A stretch of 34,889 nucleotides of DNA from the NCBI GenBank assembly GCA_015063195.1, contig SUSX01000008.1, positions 1 to 34,889 on the forward strand, read 5' to 3'. This DNA is from Thermoplasmata archaeon (GTDB lineage: Archaea > Thermoplasmatota > Thermoplasmata > Methanomassiliicoccales > Methanomethylophilaceae). Shown piece after piece: positions 14,949 through 32,905 of the stretch. Position numbers and translations under genes: made by a program. The number at the start of each line of letters is the position of its first letter. Position 1 is the first letter of the stretch. Below the pieces are notes generated by a model that saw only the letters and a list, made by a program, of their open reading frames with translations, was not told the DNA's origin and searched no databases.

Positions 14949-16733
14949 ATGATGCTGGTTGTTTTGGCTGCAGGCATGAGCAGTCGATTCGGAAAATCGA
15001 AGCAGACAGAACCTGTAGACGAATACGGCAATTTCATCATCGACTATTCTTTGTTCGATGCTTCCACTGCAGGTTTTGACAGAGCAATAGTAATTATCAG
15101 AAAAGAAAATGAATCACTTTTCAGAGAAACACTCGGAAAAAGATTGGAAAACAGGATGGATGTAACTTACGTATTCCAGGAGATGGATACGATTCCGGAC
15201 TCCCGCATACCGTCCGACAGAACCAAACCGCTCGGTACTGCACACGCCATTCTTTGTTGCAAAGATGTTGTGGATCAGCCTTTTGCAATAATCAACGCGG
15301 ACGATTTCTACGGACCTCAATCTTTCAGACTGGCATCGGAATTCATCAAAACAGAATGTTCTGACAGAACATACGGGTGCGTATGCTACAAAGCAGGAAA
15401 AACCATAAGTGAAAACGGAAGCGTCAAACGCGGAGTGTGTACCGTTGTCGGCGGCAATGTTGTGGAAATTACGGAATCTGCGATTACCCAGGATGCGGAC
15501 GGAAAGTTATTGGCAACACCGTTGTCCGGAGGAGATACGACAGCTATTGATTCCGATACACCGGTATCGATGAATATGTTCATCCTTCCGGAATCATCCA
15601 TGACCTATTTTGAAAAGGGATTCCAGGAATTTCTCTCCACATGGGGCAATCCGATGACCTCCGAATATCTTCTTCCTGAAGTCGTTTCCAACATTGTCAA
15701 CGACGGAAATGCAGAACTGAAATGTATAGAAACTGATGAAAAATGGTTCGGTATGACATATATAGAGGACCTCGATTCAGTTAAAACAGCCATAAGTGGC
15801 AGAATAAGGAACGGAGACTACCCGGATAATATGTATAGCCAGAACAATGGAGCAATACCGATAAGCATCTGCATCTGTGCATACAATGAGGAGAATAATA
15901 TCGAACGTACCATAAGATCCGCATTCTCACAGAACGGAGACGCTTTCACTATCGGTAAAGTCATTGCCGTATCCAGCGGAAGTACGGACAATACCGATTC
16001 CATCATCCTCAAACTTACCGAAGAGTATGAAAAACTCGTGTTTCTGCCTCAGAAAAAGAGAGAAGGAAAAAACTCAGCTATCAATCTGGCACTTGATAAC
16101 ACTGATACTGAAGTTGTTGTCCTGCTAAATGCAGACAATATATTCGAAAATAACAATTCCCTGGATGAACTCATTAAACCATTCCGTGACAAAAATATCG
16201 GAATGACCGGCGGCCATCCTGTTCCCACGAATGATATAAAATCCTTCACAGGGTTCACAGTACACCTTCTGTGGTCTATGCACCATCACGTCTCGATGAT
16301 TCACCCCAAGATTGGCGAATTGGTAGCATTCAGAGACATAGGAACCCGCCTTCCCACAGATATGCAGTCTGATGAAGATATCATCCGCATGAAACTGGAA
16401 GAAGCAGGATACAATACTGTGTACGCTCCCAAAGCTAAGATTCTCAACAGAGGCCCTGAAAATGTAAAGGATTTCATCAAACAAAGAACCAGGGTCAACA
16501 TCGGAGAAAACATAATCAAAAAGGAGTTCGAATACGACCTCCCTACGCACAATTACAGAATTCTTATCAACGCAATGTTTTCTGCAATAAAAGATCTCGG
16601 ATTCCATCCAATTAAACTGGCTTTCGGAGTTTCACTTGAGATGTACACCAGATTGAAAGCCAAAATCCACGTTGCCAAAAACAAACAGGATGACAACGTC
16701 TGGGAACAGGTAACTTCAACCAAGAAAGTGTAA
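14949..16733 (+). CDS. Sugar-phosphate nucleotidyltransferase fused to GT2 glycosyltransferase
   Basis: N-terminal VVLAAGMSSRFGKSKQTEPV...KPLGTAHAILCCKDVVDQPFAIINADDFYG. C-terminal ISICICAYNEENNIERTIRSAF...NADN GT2 motifs. Confidence 0.85.
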   Translation: MMLVVLAAGMSSRFGKSKQTEPVDEYGNFIIDYSLFDASTAGFDRAIVIIRKENESLFRETLGKRLENRMDVTYVFQEMDTIPDSRIPSDRTKPLGTAHAILCCKDVVDQPFAIINADDFYGPQSFRLASEFIKTECSDRTYGCVCYKAGKTISENGSVKRGVCTVVGGNVVEITESAITQDADGKLLATPLSGGDTTAIDSDTPVSMNMFILPESSMTYFEKGFQEFLSTWGNPMTSEYLLPEVVSNIVNDGNAELKCIETDEKWFGMTYIEDLDSVKTAISGRIRNGDYPDNMYSQNNGAIPISICICAYNEENNIERTIRSAFSQNGDAFTIGKVIAVSSGSTDNTDSIILKLTEEYEKLVFLPQKKREGKNSAINLALDNTDTEVVVLLNADNIFENNNSLDELIKPFRDKNIGMTGGHPVPTNDIKSFTGFTVHLLWSMHHHVSMIHPKIGELVAFRDIGTRLPTDMQSDEDIIRMKLEEAGYNTVYAPKAKILNRGPENVKDFIKQRTRVNIGENIIKKEFEYDLPTHNYRILINAMFSAIKDLGFHPIKLAFGVSLEMYTRLKAKIHVAKNKQDDNVWEQVTSTKKV

Positions 16734-16738
16734 CCGGA

Positions 16739-17770
16739 TCACTCGTCAAGAATCTGATTGACAGCATCGACAAATGTGAATTCATCAGAAACTTTCAGCG
16801 TGTTACAACCGAGTCTTTCTCCAAACTTAACGTCTGAATCGCTGTTACCGATCATGAATGAGGATTTTACATCGATGTGATGTTTCTTTACCGCTGCAAT
16901 ACCCATGCCTACATCGGGCTTACGGCACCCGCATGCCTCATCCGGATGGTGCGGACAGTAGAAGATATCATCGATACGACCGCCTTCCGACTCGATGTCG
17001 GAAATCATCTTCTGATGTATCTGGCTCAATGTATCCTCATCAAAATATCCTCTGGCGATTCCTGATTGGTTTGTAATTACAATCACCAGATATCCGGCAT
17101 CATTGAGTTTACGGATTGCAGCAGGAACGCCATCAAAGAGGATCAAATCCTCAGGCTTATTACAGTATGGAACATCTTTTGCAATGGTGTCATCCCGATC
17201 TATAAACACTGCCTTCCTACCGTACATGTTCCTTTCTACAAGACAGCAGATCATGTGTCCTGCGACAAGGTATCCTTCCTGGATGTGAGGTGTTTCTGTC
17301 GATGGTATGATCAGAGCATAGTCCGCCATATCTTTCATAACCCCCCTGGGGCCTGTGAAAGACACGGTGATTGCTCCGCGCTCCTTTGCCTTTTCAAAAG
17401 CAAGAATGACATTCTTTGAGTTACCGGATGTAGATATCCCTACAACTACATCTCCTTCCCTTGCATATGCATCCACCTGTCTCATGAATACATTGTCAAA
17501 TGTGTAGTCATTACCGATTGCTGTAACCGGCGCTATATTGGAAAGACTGATTCCTGCCATCGGAGGACGGTCAAAGAGATATTTGCCTGAAAATTCAGCC
17601 GCAATATGCTGGGCATCTGCAGATGATCCGCCGTTTCCCATGAATATAATCCTGTTGCCTTTACGGACGGCTTCGGTCATAACATCTGCAATCTTCTCGA
17701 TCATATCGCAATCAACGTTGAGGATTGCATTGACTGATGTCTCCAACTCATGCCTGATTATATCCTTCAT
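16739..17770 (-). CDS. Sedoheptulose-7-phosphate isomerase (GmhA-like SIS) fused to heptose-bisphosphate phosphatase (GmhB-like HAD)
   Basis: FMGNGGSSADAQHIAAEFSGKY...STSGNSKNV (GmhA). AVFIDRDDTIAKDVPYC...CPHHPDEACGCRKP (GmhB with Zn-binding loop). Confidence 0.88.
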   Translation of the reverse strand: MKDIIRHELETSVNAILNVDCDMIEKIADVMTEAVRKGNRIIFMGNGGSSADAQHIAAEFSGKYLFDRPPMAGISLSNIAPVTAIGNDYTFDNVFMRQVDAYAREGDVVVGISTSGNSKNVILAFEKAKERGAITVSFTGPRGVMKDMADYALIIPSTETPHIQEGYLVAGHMICCLVERNMYGRKAVFIDRDDTIAKDVPYCNKPEDLILFDGVPAAIRKLNDAGYLVIVITNQSGIARGYFDEDTLSQIHQKMISDIESEGGRIDDIFYCPHHPDEACGCRKPDVGMGIAAVKKHHIDVKSSFMIGNSDSDVKFGERLGCNTLKVSDEFTFVDAVNQILDE

Positions 17771-18807
17771 ATCTTGGCCCTCCAACTTCTGGCTCCGCGA
17801 GGCTCGAATACAAAATCTTCTACGATAGCACCTTTCTTCTGAAGTTCCTTTGCAACGATGTGTTTCCTATCATTCTTACATATGAAGTACATGAAACCGC
17901 CGCCGCCTGCTCCGGAAACCTTTCCTCCGTATGCTCCGTTGGCAATTGCAGTGGAATAAAGATCATCTATCATCGGATTCGTAATTTTGGATGAGAATTT
18001 CTTCTTCTGTTTCCAAGTCTCATCGAGTAAAAGTCCTGCTTCCTCGATGTCCCCTTTCTTCAAAGCATCAGCAAGTTTCGTACTCAGAATCTTGGATTCA
18101 TCCAATGCCTCTTCATTGGATTTTGCTTTGAAAGATTCCACCTGAGACTCTATGATTCCTGCGGAATCTCTGGTCTTTCCAGTGTAACAAAGGAGTGAAC
18201 GGTATTCGAGTTCCCAAACAATGTCCTCAGACAAATTTACAGGATTGACGACTGTGCCGTCTTTCGTGAATTCCATCATGTTAAATCCGCCGAATGCTGC
18301 GGCGTACTGATCCTGCTTTCCACCCTTAAGTCCGATGTCCTCTCTTTCCAAATGATATGCCAGTTCGGCAAGATCGTAATTGGACATCTCTTCTCCGATC
18401 CATGTTGTAACTGCTTTGAGGATAGAAACTATGACGGTAGATGATCCGCCGAGTCCTGAACCCGGAGGTGCCTCTGAATGGATGGACATGTCAAATCCGT
18501 CTGTGATCTCAAAATGATTGGTAACAGCCTTGACAAGATCCATATTACCGTCGTATTTCAACGGACCTCCGTCCAAAGGAGTCTCGTATGTTCCGTAATC
18601 GGTAGATTTTATTGTCATTGTGTGAGAATCATTGGGAACTATCGTACAGTAAGCATACTTGTTGATTGTTGTATTGAATACCCTTCCGCCCTTCACTGAA
18701 GCATAGGGCTCAACATCCGTTCCTCCGCCCGCAATACCTATCCTAAGTGGCGCACACGATCTGACAATATTCTGGGTCAAACAAAAGCCTCGCTTGTTGT
18801 ATCTCAA
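17767..18807 (-). CDS. GHMP kinase, D-glycero-D-manno-heptose 7-phosphate kinase-like (HddA)
   Basis: IVRSCAPLRIGIAGGGTDVEPYASVKGGRVFNTTINKYAY; PPGSGLGGSSTVIVSIL. A TTG start at 18780 would fit homologues better. 4-nt ATGA overlap with the GmhAB gene. Confidence 0.85.
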   Translation of the reverse strand: MRYNKRGFCLTQNIVRSCAPLRIGIAGGGTDVEPYASVKGGRVFNTTINKYAYCTIVPNDSHTMTIKSTDYGTYETPLDGGPLKYDGNMDLVKAVTNHFEITDGFDMSIHSEAPPGSGLGGSSTVIVSILKAVTTWIGEEMSNYDLAELAYHLEREDIGLKGGKQDQYAAAFGGFNMMEFTKDGTVVNPVNLSEDIVWELEYRSLLCYTGKTRDSAGIIESQVESFKAKSNEEALDESKILSTKLADALKKGDIEEAGLLLDETWKQKKKFSSKITNPMIDDLYSTAIANGAYGGKVSGAGGGGFMYFICKNDRKHIVAKELQKKGAIVEDFVFEPRGARSWRAKI

Positions 18808-18892: not shown

Positions 18893-19645
18893 TCAGAGAT
18901 CCTTGTAAAGCAACAAAATACGTCCAGTTGTTGCCAAAGAATAACCGAGACCGTAAAGTATTATGAAAACCGACATAGCGTCCAATGCTGCGAATACAAG
19001 CAACATCAGCATCATGTTGGTAAATACCAACGGATTAAAATTCATCAACTTCTTGAAAAGATTCTGATTTTTGAATGATTTACCTTCAACACCCATACTG
19101 CCCTTGCGGTCTTCGAAGCTACCGTCTCCCTCTTTGTACTTCTCGTAAAGAGGCGTGGCATCCATGAACAGTAACATACTCACTCCGGAGGCCAAACCTA
19201 GACATATGTATACCGTTCCGTTAAGGAAATCGAAAGGAAGATAATATCCTGTTGCAGAAACACAGACGCCGTATCCGATACAGAACATCAACATTGGGTA
19301 TGTGAGCCTGTGAACAATCATATCCAGAAATGCGCCTCTTGGAGATCTGAGACCTTTGTATCTTGCAATGATTCCGTCACTGTAATCCAACGCATAGGCA
19401 GCAATCCAAATCACTGCAGCAATAATGCCCAACTCATATTTTCCAGTTGAAAAGAGAAGTGAAGACAGAACCATCAATCCTCCCCAGAACCAAGTGAGCT
19501 GATTTGGAGTTATAGGCAACCTTACCAAAAATCTTGCAAAGAATGTCCCTATGTTCGAAAAAACATACCTTCCGCTAAAATATTCATGGGAATGATCACT
19601 GATTGAATTTTTGAAACGTTCTTTGTCAAAGGCCATGGACATCAC
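18893..19645 (-). CDS. CDP-alcohol phosphatidyltransferase superfamily membrane protein with altered signature
   Basis: ALDYSDGIIARYKGLRSPRGAFLDMIVH matches D-x2-DG-x2-AR-x8-G-x3-D-x3-[D] except the last Asp is His (CAC). Confidence 0.85.
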   Translation of the reverse strand: MMSMAFDKERFKNSISDHSHEYFSGRYVFSNIGTFFARFLVRLPITPNQLTWFWGGLMVLSSLLFSTGKYELGIIAAVIWIAAYALDYSDGIIARYKGLRSPRGAFLDMIVHRLTYPMLMFCIGYGVCVSATGYYLPFDFLNGTVYICLGLASGVSMLLFMDATPLYEKYKEGDGSFEDRKGSMGVEGKSFKNQNLFKKLMNFNPLVFTNMMLMLLVFAALDAMSVFIILYGLGYSLATTGRILLLYKDL

Positions 19646-19713: not shown

Positions 19714-21474
19714 TCAGAGTCTTATTCCCTTGTATACTTCAAGAATATCTTCTTCTGACAATGACACGGGATAGTTTGACATTCTTTGAACGTTTACCAA
19801 ACCGGCATACTTGATGCAATCCTCATCTGACAATCTTTCTCCGCTTTCCGGAATATATGCATTTAATATTTCCGAGAGAGCTTTGATTATACCTTCTACA
19901 GAATCTGTATCAAAAATATCCATGTAAAGATCCAGTATATACTCTCTGTTCTCAGTGAGAATCTTTCTTTCTCCCGGATTACAATACATATCCATCACAA
20001 AAGGCATGCACATACCTACTGCGAAACCGTGAGGTATGTCCCTGTCTGACGTCAGGATGTAACTTAGCGCATGTGCGGAAGTAGTCTTAGAGATGTTTAT
20101 AGCCTTACCTGACAGATTTGAACCAATCTGCACCATCCTGAAATCATTATCGGACGGGTTGTCGAGATAAGTTTTCCATGATCTCACAAGCAGTTTCGCT
20201 CCGCGGTATGCATATGCGATGCTTTCTCTATCTGAATTTACCGCCCATAATGATTCAAGACACTGGCACAATGCATCGACGAAAGTATAGGATCTGACAC
20301 TGTAGGGCATACTGTGAATCAGTACGGGGTCCAAAAATACAGCGTCCGGGAGAATGTGGATAGTTTCCATTGATTTTTTAAGACCGTCAACATAGACAGT
20401 GGCAAATTTTGTGGACTCACTGCCTGTTCCTGCTGTTGTGGGGATGGCCACATGAATTAAGTTCATGTCATTCAATTCAAATTTGATACATTTTGCAACA
20501 TCCATTGCGGATCCGCCGCCGAACGAAACGAAGGAGTCACATCCAGAACTTACATATCTTCCGACTCCGACCTTTACCTCGTCCATTGAGGGGTTTGGAT
20601 TAAAATCTGTGAAAACTTCCATATCCAATACGGATGACAGTTTCTGATAGAGTTCTGTTTTCAGAGAGTGCTTTCCACACACCAATAAAGGCCTTTTGAC
20701 GCCTCTTTCATTCAAAAATGAAACGATGCCGTCAACATCCTCGAGAAATGTCTGATTTCCTTCTTTATCCAAAATGGACTTTGCCTTGTCGTAATCCTCG
20801 GGATTATCGATTTCCATTATGAACGTGCCAGCACAATCAACGGGAGTCATCGTACGGTCTATTCTGTTGAATGCTTCCTCTGCGTAGCAATCTGTGATTG
20901 ACTCCGCATCTACCATTCTGATTACTTCCTGCATCCATTCGGTGAAGAGACTGTACGTAACTCTGTAGAACGGCTGGAGTGTTACACAATTCTCATTGAT
21001 ATTGACTGAGATGCGAGAGATTTTCCCGTCCTTGTATCCTCCTTTGAAATCCTTCGGAGGAAGCGGAGCGGAGGTGTCCACGGCAACAGATGAACAGGAT
21101 TCGGATGAAACCATCCTCGACACCAACATACTGTCGAACACAAGATCCCCGTGAAGTATTATGTAATCGTCATCGACAATATGATCCTTCAGAAGATAAA
21201 AAGAGTAGATATTGTTGGTACTGTCGTACTTTGGGTTGCTTATAAGTTTGATATTCAAATCCGGGAAACTGTCAGCAAGGTCTCTGATCTTTTCCTCGTA
21301 CGGGCCAGTGGTTATGATGAAATCCCTTATTCCGTAAGATGAAATTATCCTAAGCTGCCTTTCTAAGATGGATTCGCCGTATGGAAGTTTTACCATACAT
21401 TTCGGGCGGTCCGCAGTCATAGAACCCATTCTTTTTCCGATACCGGAATTGAATATTATGCACTGCATAATCAA
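19714..21474 (-). CDS. LicC-like nucleotidyltransferase fused to Fe-dependent alcohol dehydrogenase (phosphonoacetaldehyde reductase/HEP dehydrogenase-like)
   Basis: N-term IIFNSGIGKRMGSMTADRPKCMVKL...NNIYSFYLLKDHI. C-term VSFGGGSAMDVAK, IPTTAGTGSE, DALCQCLESLWAVNSDRES, TTSAHALSYILTSDRDIPHG. Confidence 0.85.
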   Translation of the reverse strand: MIMQCIIFNSGIGKRMGSMTADRPKCMVKLPYGESILERQLRIISSYGIRDFIITTGPYEEKIRDLADSFPDLNIKLISNPKYDSTNNIYSFYLLKDHIVDDDYIILHGDLVFDSMLVSRMVSSESCSSVAVDTSAPLPPKDFKGGYKDGKISRISVNINENCVTLQPFYRVTYSLFTEWMQEVIRMVDAESITDCYAEEAFNRIDRTMTPVDCAGTFIMEIDNPEDYDKAKSILDKEGNQTFLEDVDGIVSFLNERGVKRPLLVCGKHSLKTELYQKLSSVLDMEVFTDFNPNPSMDEVKVGVGRYVSSGCDSFVSFGGGSAMDVAKCIKFELNDMNLIHVAIPTTAGTGSESTKFATVYVDGLKKSMETIHILPDAVFLDPVLIHSMPYSVRSYTFVDALCQCLESLWAVNSDRESIAYAYRGAKLLVRSWKTYLDNPSDNDFRMVQIGSNLSGKAINISKTTSAHALSYILTSDRDIPHGFAVGMCMPFVMDMYCNPGERKILTENREYILDLYMDIFDTDSVEGIIKALSEILNAYIPESGERLSDEDCIKYAGLVNVQRMSNYPVSLSEEDILEVYKGIRL

Positions 21475-22580
21475 AGCCCCATCTTTTTCATCAATGATTC
21501 TTTGTTTTCAACAGGGGTTGTGGTCGGCCTTCCCAAATCGGATCTGGACCCGGTTTTGGTTTTGAGAACTATCGCGACCCCTGTTTCTGATTTGGATTCT
21601 GCTATTGCATCCGATATGCCTTCTTTGGAATCCACAGTAACAATCTTCTTGAAACCGAACCCTGAAAGAATCGACACGAGATCAAGTTTTCCAGTACATG
21701 TTGGTTGACCTCCGACAGACTCGTGTGATGAATTATCATTGACTATATACTTGAAATTTGGAAGAAGCGAAGTTCCGATGACTGCCAGACCTCCCATATG
21801 CATCAGCATAGATCCGTCTCCGTCAATGCAGAATACATCCCTGTCGGTACCTAGTGCCATTCCGTAAGCGATTGAAGCCGTGTGGCCCATGGACCCTACT
21901 GTAAGGAAATCATTCTCATGGGATTCGCCTCTTTTCTCTCTGATTTCAAATATCTCCCTGGACGTCTTACCAGTGGTTGATACGATCATATCGTCTTTTC
22001 CCAAACATGATATTATTGATTCTAATGCATCTTCCCTGGTCATTGTGTAATCTGACTGAATCTTAGGTGATGCATACTTGCTGAACGTATCTTTCCTGAC
22101 AATGATAGCATAAGGTTTGTCGGATTTCATCGAAGATATTGCCTTGGAGATTGCAGACTCGTAATCATCATCCAATATCGAGTATTCGATGCCGAGTACA
22201 TCCAGAAGGCCGAGAGTAATCTTACCCTGCTTTACATGCTGAGGTTCATCATGAACGCCGGGTTCCCCCCTCCAACCTATGATAAGAAGCAATGGAATTG
22301 AATAAACATCAGAATCGGTGAGCGAAGCCAACGGATTGACGGCATTACCCTGTCCGGAGTTCTGCATATAAGTCACGCCATACTTACCTGAAGCCATGTG
22401 ATATCCTGCGCACATAGCCACTGCATTACCTTCGTTTGCAGTGATTACATGTCTTTCCGAAGGAGTCTTATCTGTGATGCAAGAACAAAACTCCTTCAAC
22501 AATGAATCCGGAACTCCTGCAAAGAAGTCAAAACCCGATGATATAAGACTGTTGTAGAATTTCTCTGTGTCAATCATCAT
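21471..22580 (-). CDS. Phosphonopyruvate decarboxylase (ThDP-dependent)
   Basis: FFAGVPDSLLKEFCSCI...ANEGNAVAMCAGYHMASGKYGVTYMQNSGQGNAVNPLASL...CIDGDGSMLMHMG. Confidence 0.94.
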   Translation of the reverse strand: MMIDTEKFYNSLISSGFDFFAGVPDSLLKEFCSCITDKTPSERHVITANEGNAVAMCAGYHMASGKYGVTYMQNSGQGNAVNPLASLTDSDVYSIPLLLIIGWRGEPGVHDEPQHVKQGKITLGLLDVLGIEYSILDDDYESAISKAISSMKSDKPYAIIVRKDTFSKYASPKIQSDYTMTREDALESIISCLGKDDMIVSTTGKTSREIFEIREKRGESHENDFLTVGSMGHTASIAYGMALGTDRDVFCIDGDGSMLMHMGGLAVIGTSLLPNFKYIVNDNSSHESVGGQPTCTGKLDLVSILSGFGFKKIVTVDSKEGISDAIAESKSETGVAIVLKTKTGSRSDLGRPTTTPVENKESLMKKMGL

Positions 22581-23887
22581 CTCTCACCCGGAATGATATT
22601 CAGAACCTGTTTGATGGGAATACAGTACTTTTCACTGGCCTCCAGACTCCTGTGTTTTTCCAGCATCATTTCTACGGTGTTCTTCATTGCAGGATATGCG
22701 GACCTGAGCAAATGATTTGCATAGATGATTATGTCTGCACCCCAACCGCACAACTCCTCATCGGTGAACTGATTGTATGTCGTGGGGATGACAATGACAG
22801 GTATTGTAGGGAACTGTTTCTTGAACTTAGAAAGAAAGTCCTTGATCTCGGATCCATCTTTCTCCTTTGAATGGATACATATTCCGTCAGCTTTTCCTTC
22901 ATTTACGTAGATTTCAGCACGGGACAGTGCCTCTTCTACACTACGTCCTGCAATAAGAGCTTCTATTCTTGCAAAAATCATGAAATCATCGGTAATCTGA
23001 GAACGTTTTCCGGCAAGGATCTTCTCAGCGAAATCATGAGGATCGTCCAGTGTCTGTTCAACTTCCGTTCCGAAAAGAGAGTTCTTCTTGGATCCGGTCT
23101 TGTCCTCGATGATAATTGCGGATACTCCGAGACGCTCCAAAGTACGGACATTGTATGTGAAATGTTCTACCTTTCCTCCGGTGTCTCCGTCTAAAATGAT
23201 AGGTTTGGATGTTACTTCTATAATCTCATCGATGGTCCTGAGTCTTGATGTAAGATCTACAAGTTCTGTATCAGGTTTTCCCTTAAATGTGGAATCACAA
23301 AGAGATGAAATCCACATTGCATCAAATTCCCTGAGAGAGCCGGTTTCTGGATCTGTTACTGAAGTCTCTTCCACAATAAGTCCTGATAATCCGTTGGATG
23401 CTTCGCAGACAGTTACATAATCTCTGAATTTCAGAAGTTTCTTCAATTTACCTCTGCGTATATCTGGAGTTGTAAGTCTCTTACGTGTATCTCTCTCCAA
23501 CTGGGTGCATGAGATTGAATCTGTGTACGGTATCTCTATTAGTTCTCCGCCCCACTGTGACAACTGGGCGATGACTTTCTCTCTGATGTTTCTTTGTACA
23601 CCAGTTTTCCAATCGTCCCCGTGTATGACGTATTTAGGTTTGTACATCTCGAGATTCTCTGTATAATCCAGCGTTGTCTGGGGCACGACCTTGTCAACTC
23701 CCTTGAATTCGCTGAAAATCTTCTCCCTGTCGCTGTATGAAAGTAAAGGCAACCTCTTGTATGATGCAATAGCTTCGTCAGTCAGAAGTCCGATTATGAC
23801 GGAACCATATTCTGAACCTTTTTTGATGATATTGATATGACCCTGATGGACAACGTCCGCAGACATTGCTATGTACACTAGATCCAT
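22577..23887 (-). CDS. Cytidylyltransferase-like domain fused to phosphoenolpyruvate mutase
   Basis: N-term DVVHQGHINIIKKGSEYG (HxGH). C-term WISSLCDSTFKGKPD, LDGDTGG, EDKTGSKKNS (PepM EDKx5NS signature). Confidence 0.94.
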   Translation of the reverse strand: MDLVYIAMSADVVHQGHINIIKKGSEYGSVIIGLLTDEAIASYKRLPLLSYSDREKIFSEFKGVDKVVPQTTLDYTENLEMYKPKYVIHGDDWKTGVQRNIREKVIAQLSQWGGELIEIPYTDSISCTQLERDTRKRLTTPDIRRGKLKKLLKFRDYVTVCEASNGLSGLIVEETSVTDPETGSLREFDAMWISSLCDSTFKGKPDTELVDLTSRLRTIDEIIEVTSKPIILDGDTGGKVEHFTYNVRTLERLGVSAIIIEDKTGSKKNSLFGTEVEQTLDDPHDFAEKILAGKRSQITDDFMIFARIEALIAGRSVEEALSRAEIYVNEGKADGICIHSKEKDGSEIKDFLSKFKKQFPTIPVIVIPTTYNQFTDEELCGWGADIIIYANHLLRSAYPAMKNTVEMMLEKHRSLEASEKYCIPIKQVLNIIPGER

Positions 23888-24960: not shown

Positions 24961-26526
24961 TCATTTGGCACCGATTATCACGGACGGCAGATATTTTCTG
25001 ATAGAAGCAGGAATCACATTGGAAATCATAGTCTTCTCATCTTTCCTGACCATAAACATCAGAACGAACAACGAGTATACTCCGAATGTCACTACTGCAA
25101 GAAGGATCAGAGTTAGCCAGGACGGAGTGAATGAAATGAAACTGTCCAATAATGCCAGCAACAGTGTGCATACTGCACACATAACGTAACCGTACATCAA
25201 TGACTTGATGAATGTGAAGTATCCGGACCCTACAATCTTTGACGCGTAGGATATCTTCATCAGAGTCTGAAGAAGTATAGAGACGGACCATGCAGATACG
25301 ATACCCACAAGACCCATATCCAATACAGAGACGAAAATAACGGCCAATATTACATTTACAACACCGAATATCAATGTAAGCAAAGCAACATAGTTCAATT
25401 TCAGGAAAATTATAGGGATACTGTCCAAAATAGGTGCAGAGATGTATGCCAATTCGGCAATATATGCAATTATTATGATTTCAGACAGAAATGTGAATTC
25501 CGAACCCACCCAAACAGTCAACAGTTCCGGCGAAAACACCATTATGAATGCTACGGGGAAGGCAAACAGTACAGAAACAAGACGTAATGCAGTAGAGGAC
25601 ACTTTGACAATCTTGTCACGTTGGTTGTTCGTATAGAACTTATACATTATCGGTTCAATGGCTACTACAACTGAGATACATGCCGTACTTACCATAGAGA
25701 TTAACGAGACCACGATTGCAAAACTTCCCTCGGCCTCCGAACCTATCAGAATGTTGGAAAGAATCAGAGACATCTGAATGTAAAGTAATGTTCCGACCCT
25801 CATTACGATGGTCCAAACACCGAGTTTTCCCATGTCCTTAAAGATCTTAGGATCATAATCCGAAAATCTGATTTTGATTGACGGACAGAGTTTGAGGGAT
25901 TTGTACGATACTATAGAGAATAGAGCAACTGCAGATACAACGTATGCAATTCCTATATCGATCAAGGAAGGCTCTGTCAGTGCGAACATGGATACGATGA
26001 TTACTACCTGAAGGACAGAATAGACAATTCTTGCAGTGTACAGAATGTACAATCTGTTGTATGCGGAGAATATACTGTTGAAAGATGAGCTGAATGTTAC
26101 TATAGCTGCAGACATCAGAATCAACAGGAACATTATCCTGACTTCCGTTGCAGAATTTCCACTGATATCGAAGATGTATGTGGAAAAATAGGAAAATGCA
26201 ATTATGACAGGGATCAGAATCAGAACATTCCTTCCGATACCAACAAGTGCGGTATTGAAAGTACGTGATATCTCATCAGGGTCGTTTCTCTGAATAGCCA
26301 TTACAGAATATCTGGAGCATGCAGAAACCAATGAATCCGATAATATCAGAATATATGATGAAATGGATGTCGCCAACGGAATTATACCGTAAGTAGCAAC
26401 ACCGAGTGTGTCAATGTAATACGGTACAAGTAATAATCCGATAAGGGCAGTTATCACTGTGCGTGTTACATTTATCACAACATTCAGCGATGTTTTCTCC
26501 CAGAAACTGCCTTTATCCTCAGACAT
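24961..26526 (-). CDS. Polysaccharide flippase (Wzx/RfbX, MOP superfamily)
   Basis: 521 aa, 12-14 hydrophobic segments; TSLNVVINVTRTVITALIGLLLVPYYIDTLGVATYGIIPLATSI N-terminus. Confidence 0.85.
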   Translation of the reverse strand: MSEDKGSFWEKTSLNVVINVTRTVITALIGLLLVPYYIDTLGVATYGIIPLATSISSYILILSDSLVSACSRYSVMAIQRNDPDEISRTFNTALVGIGRNVLILIPVIIAFSYFSTYIFDISGNSATEVRIMFLLILMSAAIVTFSSSFNSIFSAYNRLYILYTARIVYSVLQVVIIVSMFALTEPSLIDIGIAYVVSAVALFSIVSYKSLKLCPSIKIRFSDYDPKIFKDMGKLGVWTIVMRVGTLLYIQMSLILSNILIGSEAEGSFAIVVSLISMVSTACISVVVAIEPIMYKFYTNNQRDKIVKVSSTALRLVSVLFAFPVAFIMVFSPELLTVWVGSEFTFLSEIIIIAYIAELAYISAPILDSIPIIFLKLNYVALLTLIFGVVNVILAVIFVSVLDMGLVGIVSAWSVSILLQTLMKISYASKIVGSGYFTFIKSLMYGYVMCAVCTLLLALLDSFISFTPSWLTLILLAVVTFGVYSLFVLMFMVRKDEKTMISNVIPASIRKYLPSVIIGAK

Positions 26527-26637: not shown

Positions 26638-27444
26638 TTGAGATTCATGAATGAGACTCAGAAGGGACTTCTGGTAATCATGGATTATTTTGACAAAACC
26701 ATGAGAGAAAACGGAATTCCGTACTCATTGGCATATGGAAGTGCCCTCGGAGCAATCAGACATAAGGGATTCATCCCCTGGGATGACGATATGGACGTAT
26801 TCATCTTCAGGGAAGACGTTGAAAGGTTCGTAAAAGCATTTGAGAAAAATAACAACAAATTCTTCCTTCAGAAACCGCTCAGTACAGATTGGCCGTATCT
26901 TTTCTATAAAATCAGGATGAACGGCACTACCGCTATTGAAAAAAAATACATCAACACAAGAATCCACCAGGGACTTTTCATAGATGTATTTGTTCTGGAC
27001 AGCTACCCCGTTTCCAAAATCAGAAAAAAGATGTTTAACACCGTAATGCTAAGCATCAGAGCAATGCAGACATTATGCGATGGAAGAATGGGAAAAAAGA
27101 GTTTTGATCCGATTCTCAAAATGATAATGTTCGGAATTAAGGTACAGAACAAGGTACTGAATATAATTCCTGAAAAGAACTCGAATCTTTCGGCAATAAG
27201 ACTTCCGTGGTACAAAACTACAATCAACATGGATTTCTTCAAAAAGATAGAGGATGTAGAATTTGAAGGCCCGGAACACCTATATTCAATCACGTCGGAA
27301 TATGATGCATTGCTTACTACAATCTATGGAGATTATATGCAACCCCCACCGGTAGAGAAGCGTGTAGGTCAACACATATATGCCCTTGATATGGAAATAG
27401 ATTACAAAGACTGGTTGGCTAAGAACCACAAGAAGAACGTATAA
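26638..27444 (+). CDS. LicD family phosphotransferase
   Basis: MDYFDKTMRENGIPYSLAYGSALGAIRHKGFIPWDDDMDVFIFREDVERF (LicD signature). Confidence 0.92.
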   Translation: MRFMNETQKGLLVIMDYFDKTMRENGIPYSLAYGSALGAIRHKGFIPWDDDMDVFIFREDVERFVKAFEKNNNKFFLQKPLSTDWPYLFYKIRMNGTTAIEKKYINTRIHQGLFIDVFVLDSYPVSKIRKKMFNTVMLSIRAMQTLCDGRMGKKSFDPILKMIMFGIKVQNKVLNIIPEKNSNLSAIRLPWYKTTINMDFFKKIEDVEFEGPEHLYSITSEYDALLTTIYGDYMQPPPVEKRVGQHIYALDMEIDYKDWLAKNHKKNV

Positions 27445-32260: not shown

Positions 32261-32905
32261 TTACTGCTCATCCATCTTACTCATGTTTCTCCAGGTAATG
32301 ATTGCTCTCTGGATTGCAGTGAGGTTTCCGACAACTGCGAACCAGATAATCATTATCTCCAACCAGGATACTGAGAATCCTGCGATGTCGAGATATGCAT
32401 ATCCAAATGTACCTGCAACGAACTGTATTACCGGGAACAGAGTAGAGAGTACGACACGGTCTGCACGTCCGAGAAGACCTGCATAAAGTCTGGGTGCTCC
32501 GACGGCCTGCGCCTGTGTACCCATGTAGGATGTGAGAAGCACACCTACCAATGCCAGCATACCCAGGTATGGGTTGCACCATCCGCTGATTGCGACTCCG
32601 CCGATCATGAACATGTCTGCATACCTGTCGAATACATGATCGAGATAGTCACCTTTCTTCGATGCTTTTCCTGAAAGTTTGGCAATCTTACCGTCAAGTG
32701 CATCGAAATATCCTGAAACAATAACAACCAATGCTCCGATAAGAAGGAAAATATCTTTTTCGAAGCTGTAATAGAGGAATACTCCCGAAAGAAGAGCAAG
32801 TATCAGTCCGATCCACGAGATTGTGTTTGGATTCACATTGATCAGTTTCTTGGCTACCGGGGTCAATGCGAAATCGACTCTTGCTCTCTGACCGTCTAAA
32901 ACCAT
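32261..32905 (-). CDS. Archaetidylinositol phosphate synthase-like CDP-alcohol phosphatidyltransferase
   Basis: GYFDALDGKIAKLSGKASKKGDYLDHVFDR; the canonical four Asp are intact. Confidence 0.85.
   Translation of the reverse strand: MVLDGQRARVDFALTPVAKKLINVNPNTISWIGLILALLSGVFLYYSFEKDIFLLIGALVVIVSGYFDALDGKIAKLSGKASKKGDYLDHVFDRYADMFMIGGVAISGWCNPYLGMLALVGVLLTSYMGTQAQAVGAPRLYAGLLGRADRVVLSTLFPVIQFVAGTFGYAYLDIAGFSVSWLEIMIIWFAVVGNLTAIQRAIITWRNMSKMDEQ

Follow-up and report, generated by a model that had tools for sequence, protein, structure and literature searches.

What does a CDP-alcohol phosphotransferase do when the last of its four signature aspartates is replaced by histidine? The question is raised by a gene on the minus strand of the window (the whole stretch of 34,889 nucleotides that was analysed), at 18893..19645, whose 250-residue product, here called CDPAP-H, is assigned from its PF01066 match, signature motif, codon reading and AlphaFold2 model. 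The signature, DYSDGIIARYKGLRSPRGAFLDMIVH (19310..19387, minus strand), reads D87-x2-D90-G91-x2-A94-R95-x8-G104-x3-D108-x3-H112, and His112 is encoded by CAC at 19310-19312. The replacement had been reported at this position from sequence alone, and both it and its coordinates are confirmed, as is the retention of aspartate (GDYLDHVFD) by the paralogue at 32261..32905. The listed start is a GTG (19645) that may be wrong; an ATG at 19642 or 19636 suits the homologues equally well or better.

Place within the superfamily

Sequence homology and the predicted fold place CDPAP-H in a variant branch of the CDP-alcohol phosphotransferase (CDP-AP) superfamily and not among its canonical members. It scores 34.3 bits against PF01066 (curated cut-off 22), and its AlphaFold2 model (pLDDT 88.6, pTM 0.87) predicts the normal six-helix membrane fold of these enzymes. 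Across an alignment of 14 homologues from the order Methanomassiliicoccales, which are 36-55% identical to the window protein, the first three signature aspartates (D87, D90 and D108) are invariant together with G91, A94 and G104 of the motif, P205, F208 and N210; His112 is invariant too, so that the canonical four-aspartate signature is lacking in the window protein and in its homologues from the order.

The best PDB match of the model is AF2299 from Archaeoglobus fulgidus (PDB 4o6m, 4o6n, 4q7c; TMq 0.67-0.70, E 4.5e-6, probability 1.00), followed by IPCT-DIPPS (PDB 4mnd) and then PgsA1. AF2299 shares the fold and the D-x2-DG-x2-AR...G-x3-D part of the signature, but is only about 20% identical to CDPAP-H and forms a 372-residue chain in which the CDP-AP part follows an N-terminal region that CDPAP-H does not have. 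IPCT-DIPPS has the CDP-AP domain in common with CDPAP-H, and a nucleotidyltransferase of its type adjoins CDPAP-H in the window, although there it is fused to an iron-containing alcohol dehydrogenase (Fe-ADH). Unlike CDPAP-H, both structures keep the fourth aspartate as read from profile alignments (LDGVLDR in AF2299). The closest named models are the archaetidylinositol phosphate and phosphatidylinositol (PI) phosphate synthases, and the scores fall far below their cut-offs: 46 bits against NF040950, the archaetidylinositol phosphate synthase equivalog (cut-off 180), while the IPCT-DIPPS model NF041135 gives 23 bits (cut-off 580). A profile search of the source assembly found only one other PF01066 match, the minus-strand paralogue at 32261..32905, which lies outside the gene run described below and, from its motif and 147 bits against NF040950 (cut-off 180), resembles archaetidylinositol phosphate synthase.

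Distribution of the histidine and of phosphonate genes

True homologues of CDPAP-H were found by homology search in 20 of the 147 genomes of the order, and all of them have histidine at the fourth position, with or without the phosphonate gene PepM; a sequencing or assembly error, or chance, was rejected as its origin, given the residue's presence in these 20 genomes. The window protein reads DMIVH here and its nearest homologue (G113, at 56% identity) DMIIH; all the others share D-x-x-N-H. These genes form one clade of 20 tree rows (SH-aLRT 99), and each of the ten canonical paralogues that the tree includes from the order has the aspartate. The tree has long deep branches and a midpoint root; the histidine may have had a single origin before this clade and its relatives in DPANN archaea split, or more than one. 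Literature searches returned no report of this replacement, which is not proof of absence, and tblastn of CDPAP-H against a plasmid collection gave no match.

Three species (L010, L012 and L013, from G091, G094 and G085) share an in-frame TAG in one column of the CDPAP-H gene (GEYFTG-TAG-[HW]VF), a column that holds arginine in the window protein and in L018, and L010 and L012 have one additional TAG each. This suggests that TAG is read through in this membrane enzyme, by pyrrolysine or other decoding. One genome (G051) has a tandem pair of CDPAP-H genes (L050, 4995-6434).

In the window CDPAP-H lies downstream of PepM, phosphonopyruvate decarboxylase (Ppd) and Fe-ADH, an arrangement in favour of the sequence-only proposal that the histidine is fitted specifically to phosphonate donors, CMP-HEP for example. 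A histidine that varied among orthologues would have told against this proposal, and in the order it does not vary. On that proposal histidine and PepM should occur together, and no such association was found. PepM, called above the TIGR02320 cut-off, is present in 16 of the 147 genomes of the order; CDPAP-H occurs in 3 of these 16 and in 17 of the other 131, where 2.2 joint occurrences are expected by chance (Fisher p 0.46), most of the genomes being incomplete MAGs in which a missing PepM, LicD or nearby cytidylyltransferase may reflect a contig end. The three genomes with both are the window genome, G113 and G034, in the last of which the genes are 13 kb apart. In the remaining 13 PepM genomes CDPAP-H is absent; no CDPAP-H appeared in the stretch of their PepM clusters that was read, some contigs being short, and these clusters hold PepM and Ppd with either a MobA-like NTP transferase and aminotransferase (AEP type) or Fe-ADH (HEP type). 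The other CDPAP-H loci of the order are clusters of heptose, Wzx, glycosyltransferase and LicD genes without PepM.

The DPANN relatives lead to the same result. They were found in 36 of 194 genomes by profile search, with a few more by another search, and in a hand-compiled set of 39 genes, whose related sequences are not independent, histidine is the commonest residue at the fourth position (18 of 39), the others being I, L, G, S, T, N, E, R and D. Eight DPANN CDP-APs lie within about 15 kb of PepM, and these have D (G659), N (G555), S (G538), E (G662), G and G (G531), and H and H (G652). Histidine is thus found in 2 of 8 genes near PepM and in 16 of 31 elsewhere (p 0.25), which is no enrichment and, if anything, a deficit, and most His-type genes are far from PepM. 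Since the histidine is clade-wide and is not enriched with PepM in either the order or DPANN, it is best regarded, on these comparisons, as a trait of an archaeal enzyme sub-branch and not as a property of a phosphonate donor. As a general rule the phosphonate adaptation is refuted, and we regard it as very improbable.

Two other features of the DPANN genes may be recorded. In L062, L064-L066 and L068 the third aspartate is replaced by glutamate and the fourth by isoleucine or leucine (EELGI, EELGL, EHIGL). The His-type genes of Nanoarchaeota in L063 and L068 lie near genes of the cytidine-diphosphoramidate type (L068 2211-6546, L063 10696-16416), comprising a MobA-like transferase, a protein resembling gamma-glutamyl-CDP-amidate hydrolase (110 bits, below its 250-bit cut-off) and a fusion of a cytidylyltransferase with a PEP-synthase-like protein (852 bits against NF004508, cut-off 501, the family of Campylobacter glutamine kinase).

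Candidate donors and acceptors

CDPAP-H stands in a run of minus-strand genes with only overlaps or gaps of less than 90 bp. The run begins with PepM (22577..23887; TIGR02320 357 bits, cut-off 320; EDKTGSKKNS motif), which carries an N-terminal PF01467 cytidylyltransferase domain in a Fom1-like layout, followed by Ppd (21471..22580; TIGR03297 439 bits, cut-off 312) and the fusion of an N-terminal MobA/IPCT-like nucleotidyltransferase (NTP_transf_3) with a C-terminal Fe-ADH (19714..21474), these three overlapping by 4 bp each. CDPAP-H comes 68 bp on, a heptose 7-phosphate kinase-like GHMP kinase (HddA-like; 17767..18807; NF049969 300 bits, below the cut-off of 600) a further 85 bp on, and then a GmhA-GmhB-like fusion of sedoheptulose-7-phosphate isomerase (SIS) and heptose bisphosphatase (HAD) domains (16739..17785; TIGR00441 and NF006506 both below cut-off). 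CDPAP-H therefore looks like the last step of the run from PepM through Ppd and the fusion, with the heptose genes next. Farther off lie a Wzx-like polysaccharide flippase (24961..26526, minus strand; PF01943 35.8 bits) and a LicD-family phosphotransferase (26638..27444, plus strand; PF04991 126 bits), a rival consumer of CMP-phosphonate.

Several of these genes deserve mention in their own right. The HddA-like and fused GmhA-GmhB-like genes (16739-18807) usually belong to a bacterial heptose pathway, and here occur in an archaeon and in most of the related loci. The neighbouring 14949-16733 is a fusion of a nucleotidyltransferase with a family 2 glycosyltransferase, of which most relatives' loci match about 290 residues only. 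The MobA/IPCT-like nucleotidyltransferase-Fe-ADH fusion is unusual, and together with the PepM-fused domain it gives the window two possible cytidylyltransferases for a single phosphonate.

The run holds no recognisable aminotransferase, and the expected phosphonate is therefore 2-hydroxyethylphosphonate (HEP). The fusion protein (TIGR03405 132 bits, below the cut-off of 424) is a candidate HEP dehydrogenase and a candidate second cytidylyltransferase, and the PepM-fused cytidylyltransferase groups with those of Fe-ADH (HEP-type) clusters, apart from the AEP-type sets. An arrangement of PepM, Ppd and Fe-ADH beside a CDP-AP is seen again in DPANN (G659, G555, G538). Given the composition of the run, the type of its cytidylyltransferase and the recurrence of the pairing in DPANN, it is plausible that the window enzyme uses CMP-HEP. 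The PepM-fused cytidylyltransferase of G113 groups with an AEP-type set, so the donor may differ even between the window enzyme and its nearest orthologue. In Pnt/Fom1 systems PepM is likewise fused to a PF01467 cytidylyltransferase, and Fom1 makes CMP-HEP; the passages of that paper on the neighbourhoods name LicD-like transferases and glycosyltransferases but no CDP-AP, and its text holds no match for PF01066 or phosphatidyltransferase (PMC6697681).

At other loci CDPAP-H directly adjoins cytidylyltransferases of different types, TagD-like (L035-L037), IspD/TarI-like (L038) or MobA-like (L049). A clear nucleotidyltransferase lies within about 1.5 kb at 8 of 20 CDPAP-H loci versus none of ten canonical-paralogue loci (p 0.03), a control made up of close relatives in one setting, with the cytidylyltransferases sought by tblastn from a small query set. 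No cytidylyltransferase came to light in the stretch covered at five loci whose genes include a PhnW-like aminotransferase (G084, G085, G091, G092, G094), a point against a donor made by a neighbouring enzyme. LicD was detected in 13 of the 16 CDPAP-H genomes searched and not in G099, G066 and G051. In G099 and G066 a cytidylyltransferase is close to CDPAP-H, and because no LicD was detected there, CDPAP-H appears from gene content to be the only evident consumer of a CMP-linked donor. The varied adjoining cytidylyltransferases and the three genomes in which LicD was not detected favour a small CMP-linked donor that would differ from cluster to cluster.

These same neighbourhoods can be read in another way. 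LicD, present in most clusters, could use the CMP-phosphonate or CDP-alcohols, leaving CDP-archaeol as the donor for CDPAP-H, which would act on a sugar or glycan hydroxyl as acceptor and so provide the lipid anchor of a surface glycan. CDPAP-H is a steady member of the heptose, Wzx and glycosyltransferase cluster, while the type of cytidylyltransferase varies or none is found nearby, and the synthases of archaetidylinositol phosphate and PI phosphate, its nearest named models, use CDP-lipid donors. Against this stand its scores far below the cut-offs of those models, its close association with cytidylyltransferase genes at a number of loci, and the two genomes with a nearby cytidylyltransferase and no LicD detected. 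We consider this alternative unlikely, though still a serious competitor.

We infer the donor, the acceptor and the part played by the histidine as follows. In an archaeal sub-branch of the membrane CDP-alcohol phosphotransferases, the fourth aspartate would have become histidine before the members of the order diverged. The neighbouring cytidylyltransferase would make a CMP-linked small-alcohol donor, most plausibly CMP-2-hydroxyethylphosphonate in the window and another CDP-alcohol in relatives, and CDPAP-H would transfer the phospho- or phosphono-alcohol to a hydroxyl of a lipid-borne acceptor as a surface glycan containing heptose is assembled, with histidine as the base. Two points suggest an acceptor carried on a lipid, archaeol and a lipid-linked sugar being the candidates: enzymes of this family have their active site at the membrane, and the product of the cluster is a surface glycan. 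Taken as a whole, we give the transfer of such a small group from a CMP-linked donor, with histidine as the base, about an even chance of being correct.

Possible catalysis without the fourth aspartate

In PgsA1 the fourth aspartate binds the second magnesium ion and is the presumed base (PMC6506517), and D93 mutants are reported to be inactive (PMC9385802). Human CEPT1 and CHPT1 combine a small CDP-alcohol donor with a lipid acceptor, which is the logic proposed here for CDPAP-H, and in CEPT1, for which His155 or His197 has been proposed as the base, the D158A variant retains about 15% activity (PMC10156783). However, CEPT1 keeps all four aspartates, and its candidate histidines lie beside the third (His155) or farther away (His197) and do not replace the fourth. 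A histidine at the fourth position could act as base without strong magnesium ligation: D87, D90 and D108 would hold the metals, with His112 in the place of the general base and the second metal site possibly weakened.

The loss of the fourth aspartate, the inactivity of the PgsA1 mutants and the presence of I, L, G, S, T or N at this position in some relatives might instead indicate a degenerate or regulatory paralogue that has lost ordinary transferase activity. This is quite improbable, as D87, D90, D108, the rest of the motif and the histidine itself are invariant across the homologues of the order, and the gene is retained in conserved clusters. The same variety of residues among the DPANN relatives is, by comparison of sequences, a reason to think that the fourth position may be less essential or even non-catalytic in this branch.

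It can be proposed, tentatively and at somewhat less than even chance, that the His-based CDP-alcohol phosphotransferases, a class widespread among Methanomethylophilaceae and DPANN archaea, place interchangeable groups (hydroxyethylphosphonate, polyol phosphates and perhaps phosphoramidate) on lipid-linked surface glycans or archaeol by means of swappable cytidylyltransferase modules. If so, a supposedly essential aspartate would be replaceable. This residue is taken as general base and ligand of the second metal, and a large archaeal branch with histidine, or other residues, in its place makes that assignment testable. To our knowledge, the final step in the transfer of such groups on archaeal surfaces is largely unknown, and CDPAP-H is a candidate for the missing transferase that would attach CMP-activated phosphonates and other small groups to the archaeal cell surface.
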